Positions 508 to 38,467 of a DNA stretch of 38,584 bases are shown piece after piece. The notes below the pieces were generated by a model. The model was not told where the DNA came from, ran no database searches, and worked only from the letters and a program-made list of their open reading frames with translations. Origin of the DNA: a virus. Made by a program: the position numbers and the translations under genes. The DNA lies in IMG/VR virus record IMGVR_UViG_3300025652_000198, positions 1 through 38,584 of that record; one strand, written 5' to 3'. Every line of letters starts with the position of its first letter. Positions within the stretch are counted from its first letter, which is position 1.

Positions 508-558
508 TGGCTAACCATAAGAATATAAGCAGATTATGCACCATTGGTATGGCTAACC
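508..558 (+). repeat. Two TGGCTAACC repeats (left cluster)
   Basis: TGGCTAACC occurs exactly at 508-516 and 550-558, 42 bp apart and in the same orientation. Near matches follow at 957-965 (AGGCTAACC) and 971-979 (TGGCTACCC). The same word occurs four times in the control region at 38248-38430 and was not found elsewhere when reading the window. A shared DNA-binding protein is the likely explanation, either a repressor or the integrase (arm-type sites). Confidence 0.6.
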
Positions 559-771
559 TACTATCGGGTTATAGATCAGATATATATCTATGGGTATTAA
601 TCGGGTTATTATTCAATCAATTCAATAGGTTATATGATTAGATATACATAAGGTTTAACTATGTATGGTCATATTAATGATGATTTAATCAATGATTACA
701 TAGGCTTAGATAACAAGAAATACGTTCAAGACTGAAACAGATACAGGAAACTGCATATGTCGGGCTTGGTC

Positions 772-794
772 TGTCTATCTTATGAGGGGTTAAG
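772..794 (-). promoter_or_regulatory. Phage RNA polymerase promoter, phi-OR-like
   Basis: On the minus strand this reads CTT, three variable bases, then CCCTCATAAGATAGACA. The 17-bp core is identical at 8351-8367 and 23602-23618. Aligned without gaps to the 23-bp T7 promoter it keeps CTCA at -9 to -6 and agrees at A-3, A-1, G+3, A+4 and A+6. It reads away from every recognised phage gene into the AT-rich region 420-760, the same position and direction as T7 phi-OR, which is tied to replication and concatemer processing at the late end. Confidence 0.8.
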
Positions 795-1096
795 CAGTTG
801 AACCCATGACTTGATCAGCTTGGACCTATGATTGAGACCGGATGAAAGGCCCAGCGAAAGGAAATAGATGCACCCACAAGCACAAGCATGCACGCCAGTT
901 GATCAACATCAGATAAACCAATGCATCACGCCACAAGGCATAGCACAGTGCAGCACAGGCTAACCCGTTATGGCTACCCGATGCTCTAACCTGTTGTAAT
1001 CAATGCAGCATGGCATACCAGCAAGGAATGCAACTAGCTATATAAGGATAAGACGCGGGCGCGTGCACCGGATTGAACCTGTTGTCAACACCTGAT

Positions 1097-1246
1097 TTAC
1101 CGAGGGGGTATAGGGGGGAATGCGCGGGTCGGAGGGTATAGATACCCCCACACAAAAATATGTCGGATTTTTACGTTTGCTCCTACACCGGGTACACCAC
1201 GAGGTAATACACGAGTTGAATGCAAAGGATTGAACGGTGTCAGCAC
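1097..1246 (-). CDS. Possible 49-aa protein, GTG start
   Basis: This small frame is listed because its signals are good rather than because its product is recognised. A textbook ribosome binding site, AAGGAGAT, lies just upstream of the GTG, and a strong sigma70-type promoter (1268-1296) lies directly before that. The product is rich in Pro, Gly and Arg with a short hydrophobic stretch (HIFVWGYLYPP). It matches no family I know. It is divergent from the regulator at 1335. The promoter could instead serve an untranslated RNA, and the frame could be chance. Confidence 0.25.
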   Translation of the reverse strand: MLTPFNPLHSTRVLPRGVPGVGANVKIRHIFVWGYLYPPTRAFPPIPPR

Positions 1247-1267
1247 GTCGATCTCCTTATCTCTACA

Positions 1268-1296
1268 ATTATGCAGACCCAATACTCACATCTCAA
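1268..1296 (-). promoter_or_regulatory. Sigma70-type promoter, minus strand
   Basis: On the minus strand TTGAGA (1291-1296) is followed by a 17-base spacer and CATAAT (1268-1273), each hexamer 5 of 6 to consensus. It would start near 1261 and read toward the 49-aa frame at 1246 and on into the left non-coding region. It lies back-to-back with the start of the plus-strand regulator, the usual geometry for an autoregulated divergent pair. Confidence 0.5.
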
Positions 1297-1334
1297 GTAT
1301 TGCACAACGCACAGTGTGGTACTAAGTGCCACCT

Positions 1335-1679
1335 ATGTTTGAAGCAATACACATACGAGGTATAAAGGCCCTACAGGACGCAGGAGTTACCCGACTGGAG
1401 CACGTAGTTCTCGCGTGTCTCGTCATGGATGACCGCCCGTGGTCGATCTCGTCGTTATCAGATGCCACAGGATACACCAGAGCAGCCATCAGGAACACGC
1501 TCAGGTGCGATAGATGGTCTCATATGACCCACAGGGACAGAAACGGGGGATACACCCTTAGAAGGGCTGCTAGGGCCTTTGCTGTAAAGGGCGCAGATGA
1601 GTTAATGGGGATACTGGATGGTAGTAGGTCTGGGTGGAGCACTGAAATCGCCAGTGCTCTACGCAAATCAACTAAATGA
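1335..1679 (+). CDS. Winged-helix/HTH transcriptional regulator
   Basis: This 114-residue basic protein is the only clear plus-strand gene. From the GTG at 1326 (117 residues), a winged-helix core spans about residues 24-88: a helix (LEHVVLACLVMDD), then a helix-turn-helix (SISSLSDATGYTRAAIRNTL), then a wing-like DRNGGYTL and an AARAF helix. This layout is seen in MarR-like and other small wHTH proteins. Neither the ATG at 1335 nor the GTG at 1326 has a clear Shine-Dalgarno; I prefer the ATG. It is divergent from a minus-strand promoter and followed by a strong terminator. In a phage with an integrase, a lone opposite-strand regulator is a good candidate for the lysogeny repressor, but this is inferred from position only. 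Confidence 0.7.
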   Translation: MFEAIHIRGIKALQDAGVTRLEHVVLACLVMDDRPWSISSLSDATGYTRAAIRNTLRCDRWSHMTHRDRNGGYTLRRAARAFAVKGADELMGILDGSRSGWSTEIASALRKSTK

Positions 1680-1707
1680 GTGGGTTTGTGTGTATATACT
1701 AAAGTTA

Positions 1708-1728
1708 GTGTTTCTAAATTGGAAACAC
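1708..1728. repeat. Inverted repeat GTGTTTC / GAAACAC
   Basis: A perfect 7-bp inverted repeat with a 7-base centre lies 29 bp after the stop of the regulator gene. It has no T-run, so it is not a classic terminator. It could be an operator or an RNA hairpin in the 3' untranslated region. Confidence 0.45.
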
Positions 1729-1779
1729 GTGCTATATGAGGATTGTCAGCCCGTCAGATTACTCTGGTGGACTAAGGAT

Positions 1780-1819
1780 ACCCCCGGTGATGCTCTCAGG
1801 CTCCCACCGGGGGTGTTTT
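1780..1819 (+). terminator. Rho-independent terminator between convergent genes
   Basis: ACCCCCGGTG pairs with CACCGGGGGT (1780-1789 with 1805-1814), a perfect 10-bp GC-rich stem, followed by GTTTTC. It ends the plus-strand regulator transcript. It lies two bases before the stop of the convergent holin gene, so on the minus strand it may also stop the late transcript, though the T-run on that side is poor. Confidence 0.8.
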
Positions 1820-1820
1820 C

Positions 1821-2231
1821 TTAGGATCGGGCTACACCCTTGATCTTCTCTGCGCTACGCATGGCACCTAAGCCGAGCATACCCAAGAGGATAGGACCTA
1901 GAGTGTCCCAGTCCAGTACAGGCAGACCGCCTAAGTCCACGTACTCACCTGTGAAGGCGCTGTAGTAGATAGCGGTGCTCTGGATGACAGGCATTGCAAT
2001 GAAGGATAGGACGAGTGCGGATACACATGTCCAACCTACAGCGGGTCGCCAACCTGAAACGAAGAGGCTCGTGTGTTGTGCCTCCTGCTTGTTGACTTCT
2101 AGCTGTGCGATCTCACCACGATGTGCGAGTTCCAAGAGTTTCAACTTGGCTGTAGCACGTTCTTCATCAGTGGTGAACATCTCGTCAATCAAGACTGTGA
2201 CGCCTTGTATGATAGCTGTTGTACTAGACAT
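1821..2231 (-). CDS. Holin, three-TM (GTA-type) family
   Basis: This 136-residue membrane protein would permeabilise the inner membrane and release the endolysin encoded just upstream. A helical N-terminus (residues 1-52) ends in NKQEAQHTSLFVSGWRPAVGW, the signature of the GTA-type three-TM holin family: the xSGWRPxxGW motif is at 59-67. Hydrophobic segments follow at about 64-90 and 110-124, ending in LGMLGLGAMRSAEKIKG, also typical of the family. The start at 2231 follows GGGAGAAC at good spacing. A longer upstream frame would overlap the endolysin by over 140 bases and lacks support. It overlaps the endolysin stop by 8 bases and is the last gene of the late operon. Confidence 0.85.
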   Translation of the reverse strand: MSSTTAIIQGVTVLIDEMFTTDEERATAKLKLLELAHRGEIAQLEVNKQEAQHTSLFVSGWRPAVGWTCVSALVLSFIAMPVIQSTAIYYSAFTGEYVDLGGLPVLDWDTLGPILLGMLGLGAMRSAEKIKGVARS

Positions 2232-2892
2232 AGAGTTCTCCCAGTGCGTTGAAGAAGTTAGCAGCTTGTGCTGCAACCATCGGGCCGTTCTTCTTGTGGT
2301 CACCATTGATGATCCGACGATCTGTGTTGTCGAAGGCGGGTGTGACCATACAGTCAGGGACCTCATCTAGGCTGAACTTAGTGAATACACCGTCGCGCAT
2401 ACCAATGAAGGCAATGGCGAGGGCGTGATCCCACTCAAGGGCCAAGTCCGGGTTCTTGTCGAGGGGTATACCCAAGATAGCCGCGAACTTCTTGTAGTTG
2501 GCGTACCAAGTGATCTGTACAAGCCCACGTCCATAGTAGGACTGCTTGTAGGGACCGTCGAGGTTGCTGTAGTTAGTGCGGATTATACCTTTGTTGAAGA
2601 TTGCTGTCACTGCGCGACGGGCTGACTGATCGGAATACGCAGGGCCGTATCTACGGGCACCTTCACGGATGGGCTGCATCCACTTAGCTGTTTCGTGATA
2701 GATAGTCGCCAGAACATAAGCGAGGTCTGGGCGAGAGTATCCATTGGCGAGGCCGTAGGCGATGATCTTATCCATGCCTTCGACTTGGTGCTGCTTGAGC
2801 CGCCCCCCAAATAGGGAACGGCGCACAGCGTCATAGAACGCTTTATTCAACTGCTGGGGCTTTCTCACCCGGAATTGCAGCCTTGGCTTCAA
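2224..2892 (-). CDS. Endolysin, glycoside hydrolase 19 (chitinase class I-like)
   Basis: Muralytic enzyme of about 222 residues that cleaves peptidoglycan glycan strands at the end of infection. The GH19 hallmarks are YHETAKW (residues 65-71, catalytic Glu67), a second acid in REGARRYG (Glu77), and YGRGLVQITWYANYKKF, the conserved substrate-groove motif. There is no signal peptide, so it relies on the holin encoded next. T7 uses an amidase (gp3.5) placed among its replication genes, whereas here lysis genes sit at the late end as in phiKMV. The start is uncertain: the ATG at 2892 overlaps the previous gene by 50 bases and has no clear Shine-Dalgarno; a GTG at 2868 is an alternative. Confidence 0.85.
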   Translation of the reverse strand: MKPRLQFRVRKPQQLNKAFYDAVRRSLFGGRLKQHQVEGMDKIIAYGLANGYSRPDLAYVLATIYHETAKWMQPIREGARRYGPAYSDQSARRAVTAIFNKGIIRTNYSNLDGPYKQSYYGRGLVQITWYANYKKFAAILGIPLDKNPDLALEWDHALAIAFIGMRDGVFTKFSLDEVPDCMVTPAFDNTDRRIINGDHKKNGPMVAAQAANFFNALGELYV

Positions 2893-3271
2893 CAGCCGCT
2901 TCTGCGCTTGCCAACAGAGCCTTGAGGCGGGTTACCTCAGCCTTCTGATCAGCGAGTGATCGGGCGTACTCAGCCTCTGTCCGGTTCTTGGACGCAGCAG
3001 CGGATTGCTCCATGTCTTTGATCTGATCTTCGATCTTCACGCGGGCGTGTTGGCCGAGGACCTTCAAGGTAGCAATGAAGATTTCCATTTTGGCGCTGTC
3101 GCCTTTGATCCGGCCTACGGCGCGAACACCTTCCTTGCGAAGCATGGAAGTGAAGCCATGTGGATCGCGGGGGAACTCAATGAGGCGCGGGTTGCTTACG
3201 GAACCTGAGATTTTGCGTTCAACGATAGCGTCAGCTTCGTTGACAGTGGTTGGTGCTTTAGTTTTAGCCAT
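2843..3271 (-). CDS. Unknown 142-aa protein with C-terminal coiled coil
   Basis: I do not recognise a family. Residues 1-75 are a mixed, basic, apparently folded region (LIEFPRDPHGFTSMLRKEG, then VRAVGRIKGDSAKMEIFI). Residues 78-132 are strongly helical with heptad-like Ala/Leu/Glu spacing, and an Ala/Pro tail follows. It has no signal peptide or TM segment, so it is not an obvious spanin. It begins after AAGGACAGGCCG, 11 bases from the terminase stop, and runs into the endolysin start. The position between terminase and lysis genes suggests a late role. Confidence 0.75.
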   Translation of the reverse strand: MAKTKAPTTVNEADAIVERKISGSVSNPRLIEFPRDPHGFTSMLRKEGVRAVGRIKGDSAKMEIFIATLKVLGQHARVKIEDQIKDMEQSAAASKNRTEAEYARSLADQKAEVTRLKALLASAEAAVEAKAAIPGEKAPAVE

Positions 3272-3281
3272 CGGCCTGTCC

Positions 3282-5093
3282 TTAAAATTTGCGTCTCATA
3301 CGTGAGAGTGCATTGGGTTGTGCTGTCCGGGAACCGGATGCATTCAGTAGATTGTTAAGACCCGGTATGGCTCTGCCATTACCTAGGGGGTTCTTAATCA
3401 TGTCGTCGTAGCGAGACTGAGCAGCACGTGCTTGTGCCTTGAACTCGTCTTGCTTGAGATGGGTAGTCCAGTGACGACAGGAGCCTGCGAGGGCGTCTAG
3501 TCGGTCATCGTGGATGAGTGCACCTTTTTCCCGTGTGATACGGGATAGTTGATAGAACACGCTGTAAGACGGGCGGTGCTCTACTGGGTACTTCTTGCAG
3601 GCATCCCAATCCATCTGGATGAGACCCTCGTCTGCCACAAGTCGGTTAGAACCGATCATAGGCTCAAGTACGTCGATGATGCGTAGTTCTTTCTGCCCTG
3701 TCTCCCATACGTCTTCGATATGGCAAGGATGCCTACGAATTAGCTTAGGGGTCCAGATGCTAGAGAGTGCACCGTTACCGAAGTTCTTCTCAATGTCGAT
3801 CTGCTGTGGTTGATACTGGCACGCAATCTCAGTGAGTGCGTCAAGTGCCTCATCCCCTAGTCCACCGGGGACACCACCAGTTGCGACCCAGAACACACGA
3901 CCTGCTAGAAAGCGGGTTATTGCGTAAGCTGTTTCGTCACCATTCTGACCACCACCTGCGGGGTCCACGTACATGTGCGTACCTTGGAAGTTCCCGAACT
4001 CTTGCCCGTAGCTGGATGCGCGATAATAGCTATCTGCGATAGGCCAGTCCATCGGGAGTGTGATGTGGTTGTCATTGCTTGGCTGGAAGTTGATCTCAAG
4101 TGGTGCAGAGCGTGCTGCCACGTGCATAAAGACGATCTTACCCGGTTTCAGAGGGAAGCGATGTGCGTCCATCAAGCGAGTGTCGAGCATGTGCTGTAGC
4201 TGGAAGTATGCTGCGCCTTGGTCAATCTCCTTGGCAGTTAGGATGCCCTCGTTAAGGAGATCAGGGTCTGTTGGTTTACCCCGGTCGCCCATGGGACCAC
4301 CGCCGAACTGCATAGAGGGTGCATTGGTAAGCGCCTCTCGAATAGCAGGAGCAAGGTGCTTGCCGTAGTTGTCGAGTTCTTCCGGTGTCGGATAACGTCC
4401 CGGCCAAATGCGGATGCAGAAGCCACGACTTACCAAACCGTTATAGATACTATCCACTGACTGTGGCGTACCAAGATAGATGATGTCGCCTGTTGAACAG
4501 ATGGATGTGAAGTCACGTGTGAGGTGCCGTAGGCGTTCACGTTGGACTTCTGTTGCGGAGTTCTTAGCACTCTCAACGTCATCTGCGATCAGCACGTCTG
4601 CCCGTTTACCCTGCATGTTGGACGTGATGCCCATACAGGCAATGCTGGGGGACTTCTCTGGGCCTTTGAGTTCGTAGTGAACGTCAAATGCCTTTACGGA
4701 TGCACGGTCTCCTGCACTACGGTCGGGCCGTAGACATTCGAGTTCGTCCATCCCCATGATGATCTGGATGATCCAGTTGGAGATTTCAGTAGCCATGTCA
4801 CTACCGCTAGAGACAATAAGAACCCGTGTGGTCGGGTCATGGATAATTCTCCAAACTGCATAGCAGGCTGTAATGGTTGTTTTCGCTTGGCCTCGTTGGG
4901 CTTGGATCATGCGAAACTTTGGTCCGAGTTCGAGATAACGTGCGATGTCAAGCTGCACCGGAGTGCAGTTGAAGCCGAGTAGACCTGTGATGACATCGTA
5001 CAGGAAGGGGCCGAACTCCGCGTATTCTTCACGAAGTCGATCTAAGTCCTGCCATCTCTCCCCCGGCTTGAACTGCCGAAGGTCATCTGCCAT
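3282..5093 (-). CDS. Terminase large subunit (T7 gp19-like)
   Basis: DNA packaging motor and headful or site-specific nuclease, 603 residues, close to the 586 of T7 gp19. The ATPase half has a Walker A-type loop AQRGQAKTT (65-73) and Walker B VLIADDVE (167-174), followed by a coupling-motif-like YLGTPQS (206-212). The nuclease half carries MYVDPAGGGQNGDETAYAI, with Asp377 the expected first metal ligand, and further acids in the C-terminal third (RLDALAG). Its ATG follows the small subunit's stop directly. It docks on the portal encoded at 20853. Confidence 0.95.
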   Translation of the reverse strand: MADDLRQFKPGERWQDLDRLREEYAEFGPFLYDVITGLLGFNCTPVQLDIARYLELGPKFRMIQAQRGQAKTTITACYAVWRIIHDPTTRVLIVSSGSDMATEISNWIIQIIMGMDELECLRPDRSAGDRASVKAFDVHYELKGPEKSPSIACMGITSNMQGKRADVLIADDVESAKNSATEVQRERLRHLTRDFTSICSTGDIIYLGTPQSVDSIYNGLVSRGFCIRIWPGRYPTPEELDNYGKHLAPAIREALTNAPSMQFGGGPMGDRGKPTDPDLLNEGILTAKEIDQGAAYFQLQHMLDTRLMDAHRFPLKPGKIVFMHVAARSAPLEINFQPSNDNHITLPMDWPIADSYYRASSYGQEFGNFQGTHMYVDPAGGGQNGDETAYAITRFLAGRVFWVATGGVPGGLGDEALDALTEIACQYQPQQIDIEKNFGNGALSSIWTPKLIRRHPCHIEDVWETGQKELRIIDVLEPMIGSNRLVADEGLIQMDWDACKKYPVEHRPSYSVFYQLSRITREKGALIHDDRLDALAGSCRHWTTHLKQDEFKAQARAAQSRYDDMIKNPLGNGRAIPGLNNLLNASGSRTAQPNALSRMRRKF

Positions 5094-5438
5094 TTAACTA
5101 CCCACAACTTTCAGTGTGGATAGGCTGGCTAGACTGGAGCGTTTATCACGACGCTCACTCAGGCGACGTTCTTGGTCACTGAGTTCTGTTAGCTTCTCTG
5201 TCTCGAAGCCGATGTCGTTGTCCTTGAGGAACTTAGTGACTGCCGACAGCATAGCTGGGTTGGGCAGTGCACCATCTTCAAAGATTTCACGGAGCATCTC
5301 ATCTTCGATGTTGTCTGCATTCATTGTCTCAATAGCGTCGAGGCGTGCCTCGTAGCGTGCTAGGATTTTGGTGAATACTTCTGCGACTTTGGAGTGTAGA
5401 CCACCAAGGGCAGTCTCTGTTGCTGCACCCAGTGCCAT
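5094..5438 (-). CDS. Terminase small subunit (T7 gp18-like)
   Basis: A 114-residue, largely helical, charged protein directly preceding the large terminase, the place of T7 gp18 (89 residues). It has an N-terminal helix (GGLHSKVAEVFTKILARYEARLDAIE), an acidic middle (DNIEDEMLREIFEDG) and a basic C-terminus (ERRLSERRDKRSS) that could contact DNA. Its ATG overlaps the preceding stop (TAATG), so translation is probably coupled. The assignment rests on position, size and composition rather than a diagnostic motif. Confidence 0.7.
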   Translation of the reverse strand: MALGAATETALGGLHSKVAEVFTKILARYEARLDAIETMNADNIEDEMLREIFEDGALPNPAMLSAVTKFLKDNDIGFETEKLTELSDQERRLSERRDKRSSLASLSTLKVVGS

Positions 5439-5704
5439 TACAATAATCCTAATCTGTGGAGTACAACTGTTATGCCTGCCGGAACGAGTGCTCCGAGTGC
5501 TACAGTTACTACGCCAATTTTTGTTTTGAATGTTTCAAGTCGAGTTAGTCGTGCAGTGTGTTCCACTGTGGTAGCGACGTGGACCGCCTCAATAGCGTCA
5601 AGGCGTTCCGATGTTTTACGGCGCTCGTGTACTAGATATTTGAGGTCAGCCCGCATCTCTCCCAGCATAAACAGGAGGCTATCCTGTGGGCTGTTATCGG
5701 TCAT
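5438..5704 (-). CDS. Small coiled-coil protein with C-terminal TM (XhlA-like topology)
   Basis: This 88-residue protein has a cytoplasmic helical N-terminus with heptad-like spacing (residues 10-58; repeated ERLDAIEAVH and ARLTRLETFK) followed by one hydrophobic segment at about 62-86 (IGVVTVALGALVPAGITVVL). The plan matches XhlA-type holin-associated proteins and some small phage holins. The position between the tail fibre and terminase genes is where T7 has holin gene 17.5. A lysis role is therefore plausible, as an accessory or second holin beside the one at 1821. There is no sequence-level proof. Confidence 0.7.
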   Translation of the reverse strand: MTDNSPQDSLLFMLGEMRADLKYLVHERRKTSERLDAIEAVHVATTVEHTARLTRLETFKTKIGVVTVALGALVPAGITVVLHRLGLL

Positions 5705-5740
5705 GCGCTGGTCCTGTTATGTGTTGAGTAGATCGCGTGA

Positions 5741-5771
5741 ACGCGCCCCCGCCTACTGAGAAGGGGCGCGT
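5741..5771 (-). terminator. Strong GC hairpin after the tail fibre gene
   Basis: On the minus strand ACGCGCCCC pairs with GGGGCGCGT around a loop of about 13 bases, four bases after the tail fibre stop. No T-run follows, so it may be a processing or stability hairpin or a weak terminator rather than a standard rho-independent one. Confidence 0.5.
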
Positions 5772-5774
5772 ATA

Positions 5775-8333: not shown

Positions 8334-8350
8334 GAGTTTTCTCCGTTGTA

Positions 8351-8373
8351 TGTCTATCTTATGAGGGGGCAAG
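8351..8373 (-). promoter_or_regulatory. Phage RNA polymerase promoter before the tail fibre
   Basis: The 17-bp core CCCTCATAAGATAGACA (minus strand, 8367-8351) is identical to the copies at 772 and 23602 and is preceded by CTT at the same spacing. By alignment with T7, transcription would start near 8356, giving a leader of about 20 bases before the tail fibre ATG. It should boost fibre, terminase and lysis genes late in infection, like the T7 class III promoters near gene 17. Confidence 0.85.
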
Positions 8374-8389: not shown

Positions 8390-8398
8390 TTCAAAGGG

Positions 8399-20852: not shown

Positions 20853-22418
20853 TTACTCTCCTGTAAAGGCTGCTTTGCCTGCCTGCTCTTGCACGTTAGC
20901 GTTAGCCTGCGCATTCATTGATGCCTGCTCTTGCTGCTGTGCTGCTTGGTTGTTCTTTGCGATCTCATCTGGTGTGTATGAGAACTCCTTGAACTTCACC
21001 GCGTGGTTGGTGAACACAAAGCTGGCGAACTTGGATGGGTTGATAGTACCGCGCAGTTCTTCTGGAACCATGTCCATTAGTTGAAGGTCTGCGATGGCAC
21101 GGCGCACGTTGTCCAACTGCCCCTCACGGGATAGTGTTTCGAGACCTGTAGTAACGATCACCTCAAAGGTGGATAGGTTACCCGTAGTCTCAGTGCTAAA
21201 GTTGATTTGACTTACGGCATACTCAGCTTCACGCTGTTGCCACTCAAGGGCTAGACGGGAATACAGACCACCAAAGGCGCTCTCTAGTTCCATAGCAATG
21301 AACCGGATTTCTTCTGCTGTTACACGCTCGGCGTCACGGGTTGCAGAACTGTTCAACAGGAAGGCTTGCGCGAGTTCCCGCTCCAATGCTGCAACAAGTA
21401 CCCGCAGTGCTTCGATCTCAAGGCGACGTGCACCCTCTGGGGTGGAGATGTCATCCTTACGACCTTGGTGATAGCTACCACGTGGTGAGGCGTTCAGTTC
21501 TGCAACATCCAGCACGGAGCCGGGGTCAACAAGATACTTAACGTCTGCCATGATTGCTGCCATGTCTTGGATAGCACGGGAGTAAACGTCGATCTGGTGA
21601 AAGGCTGTTGCATGATCTTCAACGTGTCCACGACCGTAGTTGTCACCGCGAGACAGGTTCCACACCAGTGATAACACTGGGAGGTCCACTGGCTTGTAGC
21701 GAGTACCATGGTCGATGTCGATTTCATCAACGGCTTGCTTCATTGCCCACCGATGACCGTCCCACTTGTAATGGGTGTATAGGTCAACTGTGTCAGTCTC
21801 TTTGTAGTCGGGGTTAACCTGCAAAGCACGCTGCTTGAGTGTTGCATCAAGACCGGAGAAGAACTTACGATCCATCAAGATGATCTCAATGGGTTCGCCT
21901 TCAAGGTCACGACGGATGCAAAAGTCTTTCACACCATACACGATCCGCTTACCGGATTTCAGTCGGCGGATAAGGCAGTTACCTGTGATGATGAGGTGCT
22001 TGACTGCTTCCACTGCCCGTGGGCGGTAGGAGGTCAGGTTCAGCTTGCGTACTGCGGTCTCTTCCACAGATGCTGTCTCTTCCCGAACTGCATCAGCAAA
22101 CCCTGCTTCTGCATCCTTGCCCATCTCTTCGCGGAGTTTCTTGCGAACATCCGGTGTGAGTGTGATTGTGAAGAACGGTCGATCATGGGGGAACATTGTG
22201 TCCACCACTTTATTGGCGAGGTGGTTGACTAGGCGTGGACCGGAGGCCACATCGCCCTTCTCTTGTTCGACGCCTTCTGCGTTATCATGCGGACAAACAG
22301 CGGGGATGGTCCAACGACCGTATTCCTGACTGCGTGTTACAAGATCACCCTTCTCACCGTGCATGACACCCCATAGTTGGGCAAGTCCTGTCTCTGGATC
22401 AGTTGGTGTTGGGAACAT
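20853..22418 (-). CDS. Portal / head-tail connector (T7 gp8-like)
   Basis: A 521-residue protein (T7 gp8 has 536) forming the dodecameric ring at the capsid vertex through which DNA is pumped and ejected. The typical regions are an N-terminal RPFFTITLTPDVRKKL, the core DRKFFSGLDATLKQRALQ and VDLPVLSLVWNLSRGDNYGR, and the long helical FLLNSSATRDAERVTAEEIR, all family-like. The C-terminus is Gln/Ala-rich. Its ATG overlaps the stop of the preceding gene (TAATG), so it is translationally coupled. Confidence 0.93.
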   Translation of the reverse strand: MFPTPTDPETGLAQLWGVMHGEKGDLVTRSQEYGRWTIPAVCPHDNAEGVEQEKGDVASGPRLVNHLANKVVDTMFPHDRPFFTITLTPDVRKKLREEMGKDAEAGFADAVREETASVEETAVRKLNLTSYRPRAVEAVKHLIITGNCLIRRLKSGKRIVYGVKDFCIRRDLEGEPIEIILMDRKFFSGLDATLKQRALQVNPDYKETDTVDLYTHYKWDGHRWAMKQAVDEIDIDHGTRYKPVDLPVLSLVWNLSRGDNYGRGHVEDHATAFHQIDVYSRAIQDMAAIMADVKYLVDPGSVLDVAELNASPRGSYHQGRKDDISTPEGARRLEIEALRVLVAALERELAQAFLLNSSATRDAERVTAEEIRFIAMELESAFGGLYSRLALEWQQREAEYAVSQINFSTETTGNLSTFEVIVTTGLETLSREGQLDNVRRAIADLQLMDMVPEELRGTINPSKFASFVFTNHAVKFKEFSYTPDEIAKNNQAAQQQEQASMNAQANANVQEQAGKAAFTGE

Positions 22419-23628: not shown

Positions 23629-26106
23629 TCACCCAAAGAAATAAGGGCTTCTGAGAACATCCGTGATGTCAAGGTCTCCCCGTGCAGGAAGATCAGGTAG
23701 TTCTATGTCGTGACGTGTCTCATGTTCGTCCTTGAATGACTGGAGCACGTTTGTGTTCTGGTGGAGGTCAACAAAACACTCACGAATGATATGGTTCCAT
23801 TTGTCTGTGTCACATGCATGTACACCGAAGTCATCATGGATACAGGCAAAGCTGTCGATCCCTGCATCAACGCCCCTGTCTATGCACATAAGCATATGGG
23901 TTGCGTCGATACTGTGCACGAAGTTCGGGCTTGCCCCCTGCCGTTGTTTGCGGCTGTCCAGCTTGTCAGTCATGGAGGCGATACGCATTCGTAAACGACC
24001 ACCAATTTGGGTTTCAATCTGACGTGTCTTGTAGTGAAAGCTGGACTGATACATCGGGAAGTTCAGCGGGGTTGTGTAGTGCACTGGGTGCCCTGCCTTA
24101 GCCAACTGTGCAGCAGCTTGTTGCAACCAGTCCATAGCCTCACGTGCGGCGATCACCACCTCACTGATAGATGCCCATAGCTTAGGGCTAAGGTATAACG
24201 CATGGCGGAACTGTGTGTTCTTATCGAAGAAGTCCGGTGCGTTATCGGTGGACCACCGGAAGATTGTCTCCGTACACGCCTGCTGGGTGCTTCCATATGG
24301 CAGGGTCATCACTGGCTTCTTTGGTAACGCACGTTTCATGTGCTGCTCACCCCACACCTGCTCGAACAGGTCTAGCCAGTTGGTTGCTCCCGCATGTTCC
24401 TCACCACCCAGAGACCGTAACCCTTTCAGCTTACGTGTGCACACATCACCAACTTGCTGGTAGATGTCGGCAGGCTTGTCTGCTGGTGTTAGGTTGACTG
24501 CGGACCCTCCCACTCCATCCCGTAACATCGCGGAGAAGTGTTGGAGACCATTACAAGTCCCGTCGAGAGCAATGGGCAGATGCGAGACATACTTGTCTCC
24601 AATAACCACAGCGTCCGCATATTCCATGCAGAACGCAAGAAACTGGTAAGGCTTATCCGCGTCCGCCCAGACATGCTTGTGCTCAATAGGGTCATTAGCA
24701 ACAGCGATCCACGTGTCGTGCCGTTCTTCGACCCACTGAACTTGCTCATCGCGGGAACACTTATCGGTGCCCCATTTATTCGCACCGTGTACTTTGAGCC
24801 AGTATAGACCACGCGGCCCAAGCTGTTTACCCTCAGAGAATTGGAGCATAGCCTTGCCATGGTCCGTTCCCTGTGGTGATAGGCCGGAGGTTGCTGAGTA
24901 GACGCGCCCTCGGAAGTCACAGGTATAGACGTAGTAGAAATCATCATACTTCTCCATGTCCGTAGCCATACGCATGACACGGGACACCGCTAGGTTCTGG
25001 GATACCCTCTCCTTCTCCATTGAGTAGAACTCACGCGCTTCTGACTTCCAGTTAAGGAACGATGCATAGAGTTCGCTGTCTTCTGGGAGTTCAGATGGTT
25101 TGATGTGTTCGGGGATAGGAGATACGGGCATCTCGTATGGTTGGCTGCGGGGCATACCCACGCCTAAATTCTTGTGCCATACTTGCTGCATGACTTCTTT
25201 AACACGGGGGTTGATCTGCCAGCCTGTACGCTGCAATGCATTGATCGACTTCATCACCGTAGACAGGTCAGCCTCTGATAGGAGGCGGCTCTGCTTCTTG
25301 CCTGCCTTAGTTGAACGCACCTTAACTAGGGGCACCCGCTTACGCAGTTGTGGGCTGTAATACCCACCGTTGTTCCAACTGGTCCAATCATCCGGGGCAA
25401 TAATGCAGGGCATCGTGTCGGGGCTGATCAGTTCAGATAGTTCATTGTGGTTGTTCACCCAGTCCAAACACTCTTGTGATGGGGCTAGGTACACATCCGC
25501 TTGGCGACCCTTCTTGGTCGGGATACGGACAGTTTCAACGAGGTCACAGACTTCCATTAACAAGCTGACGATCAAGGCCCCTACACTGATCAAGGTCTCT
25601 TGTGTCCAAGGTTCCCATTCAACTCCGAGGGTGTTTGACTTGACAACCAAGACGCGGTGCTTGTGGCGGTAGTTCGTCGTACCCTTGCGTTCCCAAGAGC
25701 GGACGATCTCGTCGTAATATTCCTTGTGCTCTTCGTTGAACTTGCTGAACCGGAGTTCATCTTCAATGTGGCGTCCAATGGATGCACACACACTCTGCGC
25801 CTTCTGTGGGTTGTACAGTGTGTTGATGATCACCTTGAGTGAGAACAGGGCGACCTTATCGGTGTCTATGACGTTTAGGAGTTTAGCGTATTGGTTACGG
25901 CGACGACCATTTGGGTGCTTGCCTGCGAGGTAAGCACGGATGTGGTCTGATACCTGTAGGATGTATGAGCGTAGTAGGCGGGAGCCTGCACTTGTCTCGT
26001 CAGTGCGCCCGCCCTCTACTGCTCGGTCCTGTTGAACTCGGTATCTCTCGACGCCGTGATCAACCATACGCCCCTCCCACGCCAGTTGGTCGTGGATGTC
26101 GGGCAT
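23629..26106 (-). CDS. Single-subunit DNA-dependent RNA polymerase (T7 gp1-like)
   Basis: An 825-residue polymerase (T7 has 883) that transcribes the late genes from the CCCTCATAAGATAGACA promoters. Family motifs appear in order: CDFRGRVYSATSGLSPQG (396-413), LDGTCNGLQHFSAML with catalytic Asp515 (514-528), PKKPVMTLPYGST with the fingers Lys/Tyr (595-607), NFVHSIDATHM (728-738) and CIHDDFG with catalytic Asp758 (755-761). The C-terminus SPYFFG is a hydrophobic foot like T7's. The likely promoter-specificity loop lies at about 669-720. Unlike T7, the gene follows the replication genes. It starts after CAGGACACAAC. Confidence 0.97.
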   Translation of the reverse strand: MPDIHDQLAWEGRMVDHGVERYRVQQDRAVEGGRTDETSAGSRLLRSYILQVSDHIRAYLAGKHPNGRRRNQYAKLLNVIDTDKVALFSLKVIINTLYNPQKAQSVCASIGRHIEDELRFSKFNEEHKEYYDEIVRSWERKGTTNYRHKHRVLVVKSNTLGVEWEPWTQETLISVGALIVSLLMEVCDLVETVRIPTKKGRQADVYLAPSQECLDWVNNHNELSELISPDTMPCIIAPDDWTSWNNGGYYSPQLRKRVPLVKVRSTKAGKKQSRLLSEADLSTVMKSINALQRTGWQINPRVKEVMQQVWHKNLGVGMPRSQPYEMPVSPIPEHIKPSELPEDSELYASFLNWKSEAREFYSMEKERVSQNLAVSRVMRMATDMEKYDDFYYVYTCDFRGRVYSATSGLSPQGTDHGKAMLQFSEGKQLGPRGLYWLKVHGANKWGTDKCSRDEQVQWVEERHDTWIAVANDPIEHKHVWADADKPYQFLAFCMEYADAVVIGDKYVSHLPIALDGTCNGLQHFSAMLRDGVGGSAVNLTPADKPADIYQQVGDVCTRKLKGLRSLGGEEHAGATNWLDLFEQVWGEQHMKRALPKKPVMTLPYGSTQQACTETIFRWSTDNAPDFFDKNTQFRHALYLSPKLWASISEVVIAAREAMDWLQQAAAQLAKAGHPVHYTTPLNFPMYQSSFHYKTRQIETQIGGRLRMRIASMTDKLDSRKQRQGASPNFVHSIDATHMLMCIDRGVDAGIDSFACIHDDFGVHACDTDKWNHIIRECFVDLHQNTNVLQSFKDEHETRHDIELPDLPARGDLDITDVLRSPYFFG

Positions 26107-29114: not shown

Positions 29115-29153
29115 GGGTGTTCTCCTTAGATTAAATTATGTGTCGGGTTGTGC

Positions 29154-31565: not shown

Positions 31566-31573
31566 GGTAACTC

Positions 31574-32873: not shown

Positions 32874-34504
32874 TGGTCCCTCCATGCCTTGCCCTCCTTG
32901 ATAGTAAGGATTGCCCGCTTTGCGTTCTTGTATGTGATGGTCATGGAGTGTGACCAACTTGACAGGCCCTTGTTGTAGCCCATGTCCAGCTTGCCGTAGA
33001 CGCCACAGGTGTAGACACCTTCGATGATACCTGCTGTGTGGGTGTGCGCTGTGTTGGCTTTGCCCACTGTACGGAGGTTCTTAGGGCTACCCCGTGAACC
33101 GTTTGGTCCGAGGTGTCCGTGTAGACCTGCTTCGATCTCGTCAAGGATGCGGTAGCTGTCATCCTCTTGCAGGAACACACACTTCTCTTGGAACTCCTTG
33201 GTGAGGTGTGCCCTCAAAGCCGTTGTGAACGGGCGTGCCTTACGACCACCCTCACGTGCCAGATAGGAAGATACATTCATCTCATGCCAGAACCGAGCAT
33301 TAACTGGGTCGTACATGGCAACGCTGTTCTTCAACCAAATCTCAATGGCTTGGTCGTGGTTACTGACGACGATGAAGTGCTTTGACCAGTGACGGAAGGC
33401 CATGTTGCAGAGGAAGTCCCCTACCCCATCGAACTCCTGCTGCACGCTGTCTTTACCAGTCAGGAGCATCTCATGCAGGAAGTGTGGGTCCTTGATGTTG
33501 TGGTGGTTGCGGGCTGTGAAGTCGATTGTGTCGTGGAAGAACTGCTCCCGTGGCCGCAACTGATCGACAACCCCAGTACCGTGTGCAAACACTGTCTCCA
33601 GCACTGCATGGTCCACCTTGTCCCAGTGAATGTCACCGTGGGTGATGGCTTCGATTGGGAACGGTGGCTCTAAGCTGCCCTGCTCTGTCCAGTAGGTGTC
33701 GAGGTCGTAGAAACCCCCATCCTTGTCGGCGTTAAGCTGACGTGCCCACCAGACACCCCGATCATCAACCTCAACAACCAGTGCCCCGAAGACATGGTGG
33801 AACTCTGCCACCTGTCCTGACGCCTTCTGGATGTAGTTCCGTGCTGTGACTGTGCCTGTTGTGTACAGGAACTTCGGTGGGTCCGACTTCATTGTCGGCA
33901 CGCTCTCCATCATCAGCTTGGTGTGTGGGATGATACCGCTTGCCTTGCGGGTGTAGCCCTTGAAGCTGGACAGTGGGTTGATCCGTGTTGGTAGTATGTT
34001 CAACTCGCCGCACCAGATTAGGTCATCTGTGACCTCAAGGGGTTCATCAGAGATGTACGGTTGGATGCGGGGGTCGAACCATACGTCATCCTGATCGCTT
34101 GCCTCACCCGATCCCGGCTTGACTGACTTGCTGTCAAACGTGGACTTGTTGTAGGTGAAGCGGCTGATGTGCAGTTCCGCATCACGGGCCTGTGCATACT
34201 TCTCAAGTGCATTGAAGAACGGTTCATTGAGGAACGTGTTCGACTGTGCAGATGTGAATACAAAGGTGTGTCCTGTTGCACGTTGGCGGCGAGTGTCTGG
34301 GGCTTCGAGTACACCACGCACGATGGGTGCCGCGTCTTCCTCTTCTGGATGTTTCCAGATGTCTACGTCGATCTCATTTGCGAGTTCAATAAAGGCAGTA
34401 GTTGCGAACTTGTAGCCTTGCTCACGCAGGGTCTTCATTGCGATCACACGTGCCCCTTGGTTCATCACCAGTGCATCATACACGATGGATTTATTCAGTT
34501 TCAT
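32870..34504 (-). CDS. Metallophosphoesterase-like protein, probable T5 A1-type
   Basis: A 544-residue protein with a metallophosphoesterase pattern in its second half: THGDIHWDKVD (288-298), VVSNHDQAIE (379-388, the GNHD equivalent) and LHGHLGPNGSRGS (461-473, the GHxG equivalent), with a His-rich AHTHTAG at 486-492. Size and layout recall the T5 A1 protein (about 556 residues), needed in T5 for second-step DNA transfer and host DNA destruction. That match is from memory and is not proven here. The N-terminal 280 residues have no motif I recognise. It overlaps the helicase stop by 14 bases, with AAGGAACCCCCG as ribosome site. Confidence 0.7.
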   Translation of the reverse strand: MKLNKSIVYDALVMNQGARVIAMKTLREQGYKFATTAFIELANEIDVDIWKHPEEEDAAPIVRGVLEAPDTRRQRATGHTFVFTSAQSNTFLNEPFFNALEKYAQARDAELHISRFTYNKSTFDSKSVKPGSGEASDQDDVWFDPRIQPYISDEPLEVTDDLIWCGELNILPTRINPLSSFKGYTRKASGIIPHTKLMMESVPTMKSDPPKFLYTTGTVTARNYIQKASGQVAEFHHVFGALVVEVDDRGVWWARQLNADKDGGFYDLDTYWTEQGSLEPPFPIEAITHGDIHWDKVDHAVLETVFAHGTGVVDQLRPREQFFHDTIDFTARNHHNIKDPHFLHEMLLTGKDSVQQEFDGVGDFLCNMAFRHWSKHFIVVSNHDQAIEIWLKNSVAMYDPVNARFWHEMNVSSYLAREGGRKARPFTTALRAHLTKEFQEKCVFLQEDDSYRILDEIEAGLHGHLGPNGSRGSPKNLRTVGKANTAHTHTAGIIEGVYTCGVYGKLDMGYNKGLSSWSHSMTITYKNAKRAILTIKEGKAWRDQ

Positions 34505-35783
34505 CGGGGGTTCCTTCTTCCGTGCCTACAGGCATCCCAACGATGTCGGAGTACCTTGCACGTTGTGGTTCATATTTGACTTCTGCTCGTGGGTCGGGCT
34601 TGGCACCCTCACGCCGCAACTTGTTCTTGGGCATACCGATGTAGCGTACATTGGACAGTCCCGGATCATTGCTTGCGCCAATCATAATCTGGAAGTCACA
34701 GGCACCTTGTTTACCTGTCTTGCTGTCCTTGAGCATACCCAGTGTTGGGAACTGCAAACCGTCGCCCTCGTTGCTGATCTGACTGGTAGCGATACCAGCG
34801 TGCTCATGCTTAACGGCTAACTCACGGCCCCACTGATACATGCGCTCAAGTCCTAGGTCGGTGCGTGCTGCGTCCCCAAACCCTCGGATGTTGTCGATCA
34901 TATCGTACACGACAAGTCCCGGCTGGTTGGTCTCCACGATACCTTCAACTGTGAAGTTATCAGCGTTGTGGATGTCGATGACGCGGATACGATCCAACGA
35001 CCCCATGATGTCGCGGTACGCCTCTTTGAGCAGACCTGCTGTGTTCAGCTTGATGAGTTCACTCATCTGTGCGCCGAGTGCAGACTGGTACAGTCGCGGG
35101 ATGATACGTTTTCCCGGACCCTCGTTGTTCAACCAGATTGCACACTGTCCAGTAGGTAGCTGTGAGGCGAGGTGTGTGAGTTCACTTGCGATGAACGTGG
35201 TCTTACCCTTGTCAGGTCGGCCAGCAACGATACCAAAATCTCCCGGTCGTAGCTTGCGTACACTGTCGTTCATGGCCTTCAATCGCCAACTCAATCCGAA
35301 GTCACTGACTTCCTCATTAAGCAGGTCACCGATGTCATCCCTGATGAAGTCGATCTCTCGAACCCCTGCATCAGTTTTGAACTCATCTAACATCTGAGAC
35401 ATGATGCCTTGGATGTTTGGCAACTCCCCCGCATCGAAGCGGGATAGTGCATTCGCTAGTTGTGTCCCCAGTCGTAACTCAAGCATCGACCGCATGATCA
35501 TGCCGCGCTCTTTGTCCCCCACATCAACTGACAAGGCGTTCTCGATTATCTTCTCGAAACCACTACGTTGTTCTGTTGATAATGTGGGATGTCGTGCTCG
35601 GAACATAGGTAGGAATGTTCCATGGTCGATCTTGTCGTGTTCGGGGAGTTGGTCAAAGTAGTATTGGAAGTCATTCAGTAGGGCGTTGGTCTGCCCATCC
35701 ATTGCTGCTTCTGGTACTCGTCCTTTGACCTTGTAGAAGTCTGCGCGGTATTTCGTGATGCGCAGGAGGTTTAGGTCAATCAT
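34491..35783 (-). CDS. Replicative DNA helicase (DnaB / T7 gp4 C-terminal type)
   Basis: A 430-residue SF4 ring helicase. Residues 1-165 form a helical N-terminal domain. The RecA-like core starts near LRPGDFGIVAGRPDKGKTTF, with Walker A GRPDKGKT (188-195), then QCAIWLNNEGPGKRI (213-227) and Walker B LVVYDMIDN (290-298). An HEHAGIATSQISNEG segment follows, where the H4-type sensor residue is expected, and KNKLRREGAKP near the C-terminus. It lacks a primase domain; that is encoded separately and ends just before this ATG. The two are fused in T7 gp4. Confidence 0.92.
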   Translation of the reverse strand: MIDLNLLRITKYRADFYKVKGRVPEAAMDGQTNALLNDFQYYFDQLPEHDKIDHGTFLPMFRARHPTLSTEQRSGFEKIIENALSVDVGDKERGMIMRSMLELRLGTQLANALSRFDAGELPNIQGIMSQMLDEFKTDAGVREIDFIRDDIGDLLNEEVSDFGLSWRLKAMNDSVRKLRPGDFGIVAGRPDKGKTTFIASELTHLASQLPTGQCAIWLNNEGPGKRIIPRLYQSALGAQMSELIKLNTAGLLKEAYRDIMGSLDRIRVIDIHNADNFTVEGIVETNQPGLVVYDMIDNIRGFGDAARTDLGLERMYQWGRELAVKHEHAGIATSQISNEGDGLQFPTLGMLKDSKTGKQGACDFQIMIGASNDPGLSNVRYIGMPKNKLRREGAKPDPRAEVKYEPQRARYSDIVGMPVGTEEGTPDETE

Positions 35784-36572
35784 CTAATGACTGTCTCCTT
35801 TGTGTTCTGCGATAAGCCCCCTTATGACGCGCCTGTGGAGCACCTTGGGGTCCTTGTCAGTTCTAATGCGTGAAACTGTTACGGGGTGAAGACCCATGCG
35901 ACCGCGTAGTCTTGTGTACGCCTTGTCGCCTGCTGCATCCCCATCGAACCAGCCGATGACCTTATCCCGACCGTCAGCAATTTCTGCGGCCTGTTCTGGG
36001 GAAATGGATGTGCCTAGGACCGCCACAGCGGTGCCACCAGCACGGTCAATCGCAATCGCTGACAAGATGTCCTCAACAGCGATCACAGGCACCAGTGGGC
36101 GGCGTTTGGGCCAGTACAGCACCCCTGACGTGCCTAGCATCCGGTACTTCGGACGTTCCCCGAATACTGCGCGGCCAAGTAGGCCACCTTTGATCGGGAT
36201 TAGCACTCTGCGGGTCTTCTCGTGCCACTTCATGCCATACTTGGCAGTGGCTACTTCGGGTGTAAGTCCACCCTTGAGGGTCCAAAGAATAGCTTCTGGT
36301 GGACCGTCTGATATTGCAAGTGCGCCGGCAGGCATTCTTGGTTCAGTCTGCCCCGCCAGTCGATCTTCTTCTCGTCGGGTTGCCAAGATGGCATGTATGC
36401 TACGTTCCCCATGGGGTTCCCACTCTTTGTGCCCACACCGGAAGCATGGGCCTAGGTTGATGCCTCTGTGGCTGTTGCTGATGAAGGTGCTGGGGTCAGT
36501 ACTGCAACATACGACCTTGCGCTTTGACCCGATTGGGAGAGACTGTGCGACGGTTTGCCATTTCTGTGTCAT
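35784..36572 (-). CDS. DNA primase, zinc finger plus Toprim (T7 gp4 N-terminal type)
   Basis: A 262-residue primase. The zinc module has Cys22/Cys23 and PCFRCG (Cys43, Cys46), with HRGINLG between. The Toprim core has VIAVEDILSAIA (Glu167) and IGWFDGDAAGDKAY (Asp210, Asp212), the metal ligands for primer synthesis. A KYRMLGTSGVLYWP stretch links the two. Its stop abuts the helicase ATG, so the two are probably made together and act as a complex. The start at 36572 overlaps the preceding gene by 77 bases but is needed to include the zinc finger, and has GAGAAAGACGCAG upstream. Confidence 0.92.
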   Translation of the reverse strand: MTQKWQTVAQSLPIGSKRKVVCCSTDPSTFISNSHRGINLGPCFRCGHKEWEPHGERSIHAILATRREEDRLAGQTEPRMPAGALAISDGPPEAILWTLKGGLTPEVATAKYGMKWHEKTRRVLIPIKGGLLGRAVFGERPKYRMLGTSGVLYWPKRRPLVPVIAVEDILSAIAIDRAGGTAVAVLGTSISPEQAAEIADGRDKVIGWFDGDAAGDKAYTRLRGRMGLHPVTVSRIRTDKDPKVLHRRVIRGLIAEHKGDSH

Positions 36573-36915
36573 CTGCGTCTTTCTCGAATAGCTGCATCAA
36601 CACAACACCGTTGCGTCGGTAGGAGAGCGCACTGGGTGATGTGAGTTGCCCGTGGTCTGCACTCAGTACGGCCATGGCGGGTTGCTTTGCTTTGGAGAAC
36701 GTGCTCGTGATCATAATGCAGTCGCGGGTTGTCTCACATAGGAGGTCACCGTCCTGTTCGATGAACCCTGCGATGGACTGCATTGCCTCAGTGTGTGTCT
36801 TGGTGAGGCGGCGGAGGTGTCCGAACTCTTCTGTTGCTAGGTTCATCACATCGTGTGTCATAAAGCATCGCCGTTGTAGGCGGCAGTACGCTTGGCTCAG
36901 TTCAATGTTGTTCAT
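36496..36915 (-). CDS. Unknown 139-aa early protein
   Basis: An apparently all-helical N-terminal half (LSQAYCRLQRRCFMTHDVMN; EEFGHLRRLTKTHTEAMQSI) is followed by a beta-rich part (CETTRDCIMITSTFSKAKQP; ALSYRRNGVVLMQLFE) and a basic tail. No family is recognised. It overlaps the 59-aa gene before it (ATGA) and the primase after it, so it belongs to the same coupled operon. Confidence 0.7.
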   Translation of the reverse strand: MNNIELSQAYCRLQRRCFMTHDVMNLATEEFGHLRRLTKTHTEAMQSIAGFIEQDGDLLCETTRDCIMITSTFSKAKQPAMAVLSADHGQLTSPSALSYRRNGVVLMQLFEKDADDTEMANRRTVSPNRVKAQGRMLQY

Positions 36916-37091
36916 GGGTTCTCAGGCTCCAAAAGTGTGGGCATCTTACGGGATGCGTTTTTGTTGTACTCCGTGATCATCTCTGTGAGGTCTGCACGGT
37001 CGGCAGGTGTCATGGCATGGATGCCGTGGTACACGCTGTAAACGAGGGCACGTGAGCGCCTCCGTTGTTCAATTTCTGGGCGGCGGTTCAC
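36912..37091 (-). CDS. Unknown 59-aa protein, GTG start
   Basis: The GTG overlaps the stop of the upstream gene (GTGA) and the TGA overlaps the ATG of the next one (ATGA), so the frame exactly fills a gap that would otherwise be empty. The product is basic at its N-terminus (VNRRPEIEQRRRSRALVYSV) with a helical middle (MTPADRADLTEMITEYNKN). The double overlap is the same signature seen throughout this operon, which is the main evidence for the gene. Confidence 0.65.
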   Translation of the reverse strand: MNRRPEIEQRRRSRALVYSVYHGIHAMTPADRADLTEMITEYNKNASRKMPTLLEPENP

Positions 37092-37297
37092 TGTGCTGCC
37101 TCAAAGGCATCATTAGTTAGAAATTCGAGTTGGCCACGGTGATCACGAAGTGCGACCTTCCACCCCTGCATTGCTCCGCGAAGTTTGTGCGGGAACAGGC
37201 GGTAGGCTACGATGCCCTTCTGACCAACCATGTTAGCTGCCACACGGTCGGCGGTACTGTCTTGAATGAAGACTGCTGGGGTGGTGTCCATGGTCAT
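37088..37297 (-). CDS. Unknown 69-aa early protein
   Basis: A compact product, with a TTPAVFIQDSTADRVAANMV start, then KGIVAYRLFPHKLRGAMQG and LRDHRGQLEFLTNDAFEAAQ, looking like a small mixed alpha/beta domain. It is not recognised. Its ATG overlaps the upstream stop (ATGA). Confidence 0.65.
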   Translation of the reverse strand: MTMDTTPAVFIQDSTADRVAANMVGQKGIVAYRLFPHKLRGAMQGWKVALRDHRGQLEFLTNDAFEAAQ

Positions 37298-37530
37298 GCC
37301 ACCGAGATCAGTGAGGTCATCAGTGGGAAGGTCGTGCGACGATCCATGAGGCCCTTGGTTGTGTGCATGTAGACGATCCGGTCGTCTTGCGGTGTCTCGC
37401 CTGTTTCGATGTCACGGACGAATACCCGTCCGAATGGGACCTTCTTCTTGATCTTGGTACGGCGGGATGAAGAGATTGCACGGCGTCGGGCACGGGGAAG
37501 CACCCGCTCTGCGTCGGTTAGATTAAACAT
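37294..37530 (-). CDS. Unknown 78-aa basic early protein
   Basis: The N-terminal half is strongly basic (VLPRARRRAISSSRRTKIKK), followed by KVPFGRVFVRDIETGETPQD and a hydrophobic end (FPLMTSLISVA). Nucleic-acid binding is plausible. I place the start at the ATG at 37530, with AAAGGA 8 bases ahead; a longer frame to 37587 begins with TTG and has no ribosome site. This is the first gene after the early terminator. Confidence 0.65.
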   Translation of the reverse strand: MFNLTDAERVLPRARRRAISSSRRTKIKKKVPFGRVFVRDIETGETPQDDRIVYMHTTKGLMDRRTTFPLMTSLISVA

Positions 37531-37641
37531 GGGGAAGTCCTTTGGTGTCAGCCAATCAAGGGCGGGCAACTCACAACGACACACCAACCAACTACCCCTG
37601 ACCCTTGCGGAGGTCTGGGTTACGCTGTGGCCGCAAGATCA

Positions 37642-37662
37642 CTGTAGGGAACGTACCTACAG
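37642..37662. repeat. Inverted repeat CTGTAGG / CCTACAG
   Basis: A perfect 7-bp inverted repeat with a 7-base centre lies between the early terminator and the gene starting at 37530. This 240-bp gap has no gene. It could be an operator, or a hairpin in the transcript. I see no good sigma70 promoter beside it. Confidence 0.5.
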
Positions 37663-37690
37663 GCTGATGTGTCTCTGAGAGTTGCCCATG

Positions 37691-37721
37691 AAAAAGGCCC
37701 GCCACAATCAAGTGACGAGCC
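37691..37721 (-). terminator. Rho-independent terminator after the first early gene
   Basis: On the minus strand GGCTCGTCAC pairs with GTGGCGGGCC (with G-U pairs) around TTGATT, followed by TTTTT. It makes the 38183 gene a unit of its own. The replication genes therefore need read-through, antitermination or a separate promoter between 37690 and 37531. Confidence 0.85.
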
Positions 37722-37772
37722 TAGCATCTCGGCGGTGCAGCTTATGCTGTCTTCCGCCTATGGGGTGTGGTC

Positions 37773-38183
37773 TTAGATGTCTGCGAGTGGGTCCGAGGTA
37801 ACGACCGGATCAGCACTCACGACTGCCTCTGCCTTCGCCTTTGGCGCTGGCTTTGTTACTGGTGTCTCGCCACCGTCAACTGCTTCAACAGCGGCACCAT
37901 AGGACTGGCGTGTCGGCTTGACGATCAGGCCGAGGTCAACTGCTTTGTTCAAGTACCCACGCACTGTCTGTGCAGTCGGGACTTCTTTGCCCATCCGTGT
38001 GGCGGCGGCGATGATGTGGTTGATTGTCAACTCTGGGTGGCCAGCTTCTGCACCAGCGGCAACAATGGCAGCATACTCGCGGGCCATGTCGTCAGTCTCG
38101 GTGTTCAGCTTGCTTGCCAGTTCTGGTGGCAGGTCGCTCAGGTCGGTGAAGTCAAACGGGTTCTTTGATGGTGTATTAGTCAT
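37773..38183 (-). CDS. Probable small winged-helix protein, first early gene
   Basis: A 136-residue protein with a compact helical domain (HPELTINHIIAAATRMGKEV; PTAQTVRGYLNKAVDLGLIV) laid out like a winged helix, followed by an Ala/Pro/Val-rich acidic tail. It could bind DNA or host RNA polymerase. It is the first gene after the TGGCTAACC control region and is closed by its own terminator, so it may be regulatory and expressed early or in lysogeny. The start at 38183 has GGAGAGACAC upstream; the ATG four codons earlier would lie over that site. Confidence 0.6.
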   Translation of the reverse strand: MTNTPSKNPFDFTDLSDLPPELASKLNTETDDMAREYAAIVAAGAEAGHPELTINHIIAAATRMGKEVPTAQTVRGYLNKAVDLGLIVKPTRQSYGAAVEAVDGGETPVTKPAPKAKAEAVVSADPVVTSDPLADI

Positions 38184-38467
38184 GTGTCTCTCCATGGGTT
38201 GTGTGTATTGTGGCGTACAGCGTTGTTGCTGCTTAGTCCACGTTTGCGGTTAGCCACCTGCCTAAATGCTTCAATGTTATCAAAGAGCACTTAGGTCCGG
38301 GTTAGCCAGTCTATGCCCCTGTTATTGCAGGAACTGTTGCGTCCCCTAGGGACTGCCAAAGGTATCATTTTCCCCTTATTTTACAGTGTCTTGGGTTGCT
38401 CATGTGGCTAACCTTTCTGAGGGTTAGCCATGTGTGGTGTAGGATTTACCCTACTTTTTCATGGTTT
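38184..38467. promoter_or_regulatory. Early control region with repeated TGGCTAACC sites
   Basis: This gene-free 284 bp separates the integrase end from the first early gene. It holds the 9-bp word TGGCTAACC four times (38248-38256, 38300-38308 and 38422-38430 on the minus strand, 38405-38413 on the plus strand), a palindromic GTCCCCTAGGGAC (38341-38353), and a short hairpin with a T-run on the plus strand (GTAGG/CCTAC, 38439-38459). I found no sigma70 promoter near consensus, though the early genes should start here. It is the likely site of lysis-lysogeny or early control. Confidence 0.6.
38248..38430. repeat. Four TGGCTAACC repeats (right cluster), one pair inverted
   Basis: Minus-strand copies lie at 38248-38256, 38300-38308 and 38422-38430, with an inverted copy at 38405-38413. 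The last two form a 9-bp inverted repeat with an 8-base spacer, the geometry of a dimer operator. Two more exact copies lie at 508 and 550. Confidence 0.75.

Follow-up and report, generated by a model that had tools for sequence, protein, structure and literature searches.

A repeated 9-bp word in a phiKMV-like phage contig outlines a probable lambda-type attachment site with a tRNA-Glu core

The 9-bp word TGGCTAACC is repeated near both ends of a viral contig that we analysed over its full 38,584 nucleotides (hereafter, the window). Judged from its sequence, the right-hand cluster of four copies is very probably the attP at which the lambda-type tyrosine integrase of a phiKMV-like phage acts. 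A first-pass annotation had suggested that the words might be arm-type sites for the integrase. For the right cluster this reading is supported, because the copies have attP geometry, enclose a tRNA core, are split between attL and attR in a related lysogen, vary across the integrase family and are absent from relatives that lack an integrase; the evidence does not extend it to the left cluster.

Results

The phage and its gene order

By gene order, the window is a 38.6-kb contig of a phiKMV-like member of the Autographiviridae, related to T7. Almost all of its genes lie on the minus strand, the RNA polymerase gene adjoins the structural genes, as is characteristic of phiKMV-like phages, and the genes for primase, helicase and DNA polymerase occupy the right-hand part. 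In a comparison of RNA polymerases, the nearest isolated phages were Kafavirus MedPE-SWcel-C56 and Paracoccus phage ParMal1 (49% identity). The genes that bear on the argument are as follows.

1326-1679, plus strand: 117-amino-acid open reading frame with a weak helix-turn-helix match, opposing the direction of all other genes
1821-2366: holin
3282-5093: terminase
20853-22418: head-tail adaptor, next to the RNA polymerase gene
23629-26106: single-subunit RNA polymerase (phrog_414), beside the head-tail adaptor and structural genes
37773-38195, minus strand: conserved early protein adjoining the putative attP, with weak matches of winged-helix type
38468-38584, minus strand: 3' part of the tyrosine integrase gene, which the contig end truncates to its last 38 codons plus stop

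The integrase stop codon occupies 38468-38470, and the encoded fragment, GASPHEIMAVTGHKTLAEVEKYTSTFARAGLADRAMER, is similar to the C-terminus of the integrases of related phages. The contig is incomplete: two relatives, G002 (44.2 kb) and G007 (45.2 kb), hold about 5-6 kb more between the two ends, consisting of the remainder of the integrase gene and other early genes, among them a DNA clamp in G002. Because of this extra DNA, the left and right word clusters are not neighbours even on a circular map. An imperfect inverted repeat (26 bp, 81%; 37564-37589 and 37662-37687) surrounds a gene-free stretch downstream of the 37773-38195 gene.

The word is confined to the gene-free ends

Scanning both strands gave six exact copies of TGGCTAACC (508+, 550+, 38248-, 38300-, 38405+ and 38422-), the same six that the first-pass annotation had placed in the gene-free ends, and none in the 36 kb between them, where many copies in coding DNA would have spoken against a special role. 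The near copies that it had listed at 957 and 971 were both recovered with one mismatch, its inverted pair with an 8-base spacer is the one at 38405/38422, and the cluster said to adjoin the integrase sits in the interval that separates the integrase stop from the next early gene. Allowing up to one mismatch, the whole window contains 14 copies against 6.9 expected, a number reached in 3 of 100 shuffled sequences; the six one-mismatch copies in the 36-kb middle are at chance level. When the two clusters were scored with a weight matrix against order-2 Markov nulls, their summed score was reached in 0 of 2000 simulations, a test that is independent for the left cluster only, because the matrix was partly built from right-cluster sites.

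Architecture of the right cluster

The right cluster comprises four putative arm sites and a putative core:

38422-38430, minus strand: arm site R1, TGGCTAACC
38405-38413, plus strand: arm site R2, TGGCTAACC, inverted relative to R1, spacer 8
38342-38358, plus strand: core TCCCCTAGGGACTGCCA, with the same letters as the 3' end of Rhodobacterales tRNA-Glu(ttc)
38300-38308, minus strand: arm site R3, TGGCTAACC, +122 from R1
38248-38256, minus strand: arm site R4, TGGCTAACC, +174 from R1

Word copies thus flank the core on both sides, with the inverted pair R1/R2 on one side, the tRNA 3' end about 72 bp from R1, and R3 and R4 as two direct sites 52 bp apart on the other. With regard to IHF and Xis sites, a TTGAT-like motif was noticed, by eye only, in the stretch separating R3 from R4. 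That the core should be a tRNA end was predicted from its position and later borne out by the match to tRNA-Glu. The 17-base sequence is unique within the window. Of 293 Rhodobacterales genomes, 31 contain it (reversed control, 0), and at all 12 Rhodobacterales loci examined it forms the last 17 bases of tRNA-Glu(ttc). Since the match held at every locus examined, the phage or its close kin probably integrates at tRNA-Glu, and its host probably belongs to the Rhodobacterales.

The module in relatives and in a lysogen

In relatives too the word stands beside the integrase or the early gene, and the order is kept, as the first-pass annotation had proposed to check. Reading from the integrase stop, G007 (locus L013) has a word, a reversed word, two further words and then the conserved early gene, with steps of 18, 104 and 52 bp compared with 17, 105 and 52 in the window. 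The layout of L014 is similar, with a degenerate R3 and a reversed TGGCTAACT nearby. The core of L013 had no tRNA match in 61 Rhodobacterales and 58 alphaproteobacterial genomes.

The most informative relative, G002, is a prophage of Pseudorhodobacter antarcticus. Its integrase end abuts tRNA-Met(cat), the terminal bases of which, GTCCTGCCGGGCCTACCATT, are repeated at the opposite prophage end, so that the core is common to phage and bacterial attachment site here (tRNA-Met) as it is in the window (tRNA-Glu). The inverted pair lies in attL and the two direct words lie in attR. When the two flanks were joined by script, the module was arranged as in the window, and the distance from R1 to the core was 72, as in L013 and L014 and within one base of that in the window. 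On sequence grounds, this partition between attL and attR, together with sites on both sides of the core in the window, is the anatomy of a lambda-type attP. Among 391 genomes of the order, no further T7-like lysogen was found apart from G009. A transposase gene, likely an insertion sequence, lies just past attR of the P. antarcticus prophage (L016, 3301-4233).

Survey of the integrase family

A pattern scan for the inverted pair over 2.9 million viral contigs returned 53 loci, with a spacer of 9 in 41, 8 in four, 10 in two, and 6, 7 or 12 in the other six. In nearly all loci with spacers of 8-10, a related integrase gene ends at the pair or close to it, and the pair usually overlaps the final codons; the same search found no integrase at the pair in the six with other spacers. 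As this set had been picked by the word, a second set was picked by integrase similarity. With duplicates removed, the pair occurred at the integrase 3' end in 46 of 76 viral and 11 of 29 genomic loci, fractions that lean upwards because the query alignment was mostly built from integrases found through the word. The 5' side of the same loci, a control free of that lean, had the pair in 0 of 105, and shuffled sequences had it in 6 of 3000. About half of the wider family has no recognisable pair.

The word itself varies between phages (TGTCTAACC, TGTCCAACC, TGACTAACC, TGGCGAACC, TTGCTAACC) and is consistent within one phage; for example, L173 has TGGCGAACC four times and L125 has TGACTAACC three times. 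Because the pair search demands near-identical arms, the independent evidence here is that R3 and R4 share the variant of the pair. With the word left free, the four-site module scored 25-27 of 27 in ten loci (eight distinct modules), compared with at most 20 in 225 shuffles, and a tRNA-like end (TGG...) stands at about +72 in all modules shown. The same geometry is present in unrelated temperate phages with related integrases, and the other integrase-bearing contigs tested, some of them fragments, gave no match to a T7-like RNA polymerase. The isolated phage phi2LM21, which has a related integrase and an annotated tRNA-Phe att site, has no clear word copy on the integrase side.

In L119, which is identical to L092, the whole module is flipped as a block relative to the integrase gene. 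The inverted block is complete there and partly recognisable in L138, L112 and L143, which suggests that the attP site can flip and still function. In L048, L064, L071 and others, the last integrase codons encode the inverted pair (LAN...RLA). Where this is so, the integrase's own binding site may have shaped the tail of the protein, and because the pair lies inside the integrase reading frame in many family members, its conservation could be partly at the protein level.

The integrase and its proposed mode of action

The tyrosine recombinase beside these sites is represented in the window by a 38-amino-acid C-terminus and in G007 and G002 by full genes, which match Phage_integrase; the catalytic K, HxxR and Y are invariant in the family alignment. 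The predicted fold of the G007 integrase begins with three strands and a helix, consistent with a separate N-terminal arm-binding domain, and its best PDB match is full-length lambda Int; the window gene is cut before this domain. From the mechanism of lambda integrase we infer that Int is the word-binding protein and bridges arm and core, with its N-terminal domain as the probable reader of the word. This domain would bind both arms, one at R1/R2 and the other at R3/R4, and the catalytic domains would act on the core that copies the tRNA-Glu 3' end. With the arms brought together, attP would be recombined with the host tRNA-Glu gene, and recombination would restore the tRNA 3' end.

Alternative readings of the right cluster

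The first-pass annotation had also offered the words as operators of a lysogeny repressor. The repressor could be, for instance, the 117-amino-acid protein (1326-1679) or the 37773-38195 protein, with the integrase nearby by coincidence. The left cluster is conserved within a non-coding block upstream of early genes, and the 117-amino-acid protein has its helix-turn-helix match, both as that reading would have it. However, a homologue search found no convincing counterpart of this protein in the word-bearing relatives; the open reading frame may encode a lysogeny regulator or may not be a real gene. The 37773-38195 protein is probably not the word reader, because two phages, G400 and G401, keep its homologue with neither the exact word nor an integrase match (this integrase search had no positive control of its own, but the open reading frames listed nearby point the same way). 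ParMal1 and MedPE-SWcel-C56 likewise have no exact word, and their near copies are at chance level. Candidate regulators are thus missing from word-bearing relatives or kept in relatives without the word, and what the word travels with is the integrase, into unrelated phages and at set distances around a tRNA core. As an account of the right cluster, repressor operators are unsupported, and we consider them very unlikely.

Two further readings concern the integration reaction itself. Sites of excision factors (Xis/RDF) usually lie on one side. Such factors bind attP arms in other systems (PMC11963761), and the words might serve one of them instead of Int. Here, however, the words lie on both arms and accompany the integrase in elements of differing gene content, and this possibility seems slighter still than that of a repressor. 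The inverted pair might also be the strand-exchange core, with two core-type sites around an 8-bp overlap, and inverted 9-bp sites with an 8-bp spacer do look like a recombinase core. Yet the spacer ranges from 8 to 10 among relatives, and in the P. antarcticus lysogen the crossover is the common tRNA sequence 72 bp away and attL keeps the pair whole. The lysogen rules this arrangement out there, and for the window we give it practically no weight.

The left cluster in the early control region

The attP reading of the right cluster leaves the remote copies at the left end to be explained. They comprise the following elements.

508-516, plus strand: remote word copy
550-558, plus strand: remote word copy
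957-965, plus strand: near copy AGGCTAACC, opening a direct pair with a 14-bp step
971-979, plus strand: near copy TGGCTACCC, which completes the direct pair
1101-1172 (7203-7275 in L017; 1925-1997, minus strand, in L013): conserved non-coding element GAGGGGGTATAGGGGGGAA...GGTATAGATACCCCC...AAAAATATGTCGGA, beside the direct pair

This block, upstream of the early genes and at a distance of 5.7-7 kb from attP in the relatives, has no attP geometry. The earlier proposal that both clusters form one temperate control circuit is not established. The block may be a separate regulatory site, at which Int, or another protein recognising this word, controls early transcription or tethers attP to the early control region. 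For the two exact and two near copies, 0 of 2000 simulations scored as high in the window, and the same was true of G007. The direct pair, with a step of 13-14 bp, stands at a homologous place in all three integrase-bearing T7-like phages, which also keep the non-coding element (a candidate packaging site, origin or promoter); the integrase-less L034 has neither. Against this, the score of G002 is weak (P about 0.1), promoter-like sites show no excess over chance, and the comparison comprises three phages. A separate site of this kind is a tentative proposal, with the odds somewhat against it. Conservation and location in the early control region make a regulatory role possible, and the same protein may bind there. 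That the integrase reads the remote copies and so couples integration to the silencing of lytic genes, as a one-protein switch with no classical repressor, we regard as rather unlikely.

Discussion

As far as a limited literature search shows, what is new is the word itself, a four-site geometry that is fixed and includes an inverted pair, the variation of the word across one integrase family, and the presence of the module in a phiKMV-like phage; among the literature matches listed, none apparently describes the word as an att element. A T7-like phage appears to carry a complete lambda-style integration site with a named target, tRNA-Glu. Combined with a variable word, the ruler of pair, 72, 122 and 174 should make the attP and targets of a large integrase family readable from sequence alone, which may aid host finding for uncultured phages and the search for new integration tools. 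The second cluster makes lysogeny control in T7-like phages testable.

Lambda-type integration is known from textbooks to involve arm sites and tRNA cores. The system proposed here shares with lambda a tyrosine recombinase, an N-terminal arm-binding domain and arm sites on either side of the core. It differs in that one arm is a tight inverted pair and the other consists of two direct sites at a 52-bp step, in that the core is a tRNA end, and, in the wider family, in that the arm pair often lies inside the end of the integrase gene. To our knowledge, the TGGCTAACC-type word is unrelated to lambda arm sites. The alphaproteobacterial tyrosine integrase IntS of ICEMlSymR7A also uses several arm sites around a core, in a 283-bp attP; its five sites have the consensus TGKTGGTATC (PMC11963761), whereas the window has four sites of the TGGCTAACC type.

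MedPE-SWcel-C56 and ParMal1, both Autographiviridae, have a gene order like that of the window; ParMal1 has no annotated integrase, and neither phage is among the integrase matches listed. Temperate T7-like phages with a tyrosine integrase are known, namely Pelagibacter HTVC019P, Agrobacterium Pasto and Pseudomonas LUZ100; integration was shown for HTVC019P and Pasto, and a tRNA link has been proposed (PMC10134795). The term 'attP' does not appear in the main text of the LUZ100 paper. In contrast to these three phages, the window phage has a phiKMV-like gene order and has its integrase gene with the first early genes, a long way from that for RNA polymerase. In LUZ100, by contrast, the integrase gene is close upstream of the polymerase gene.
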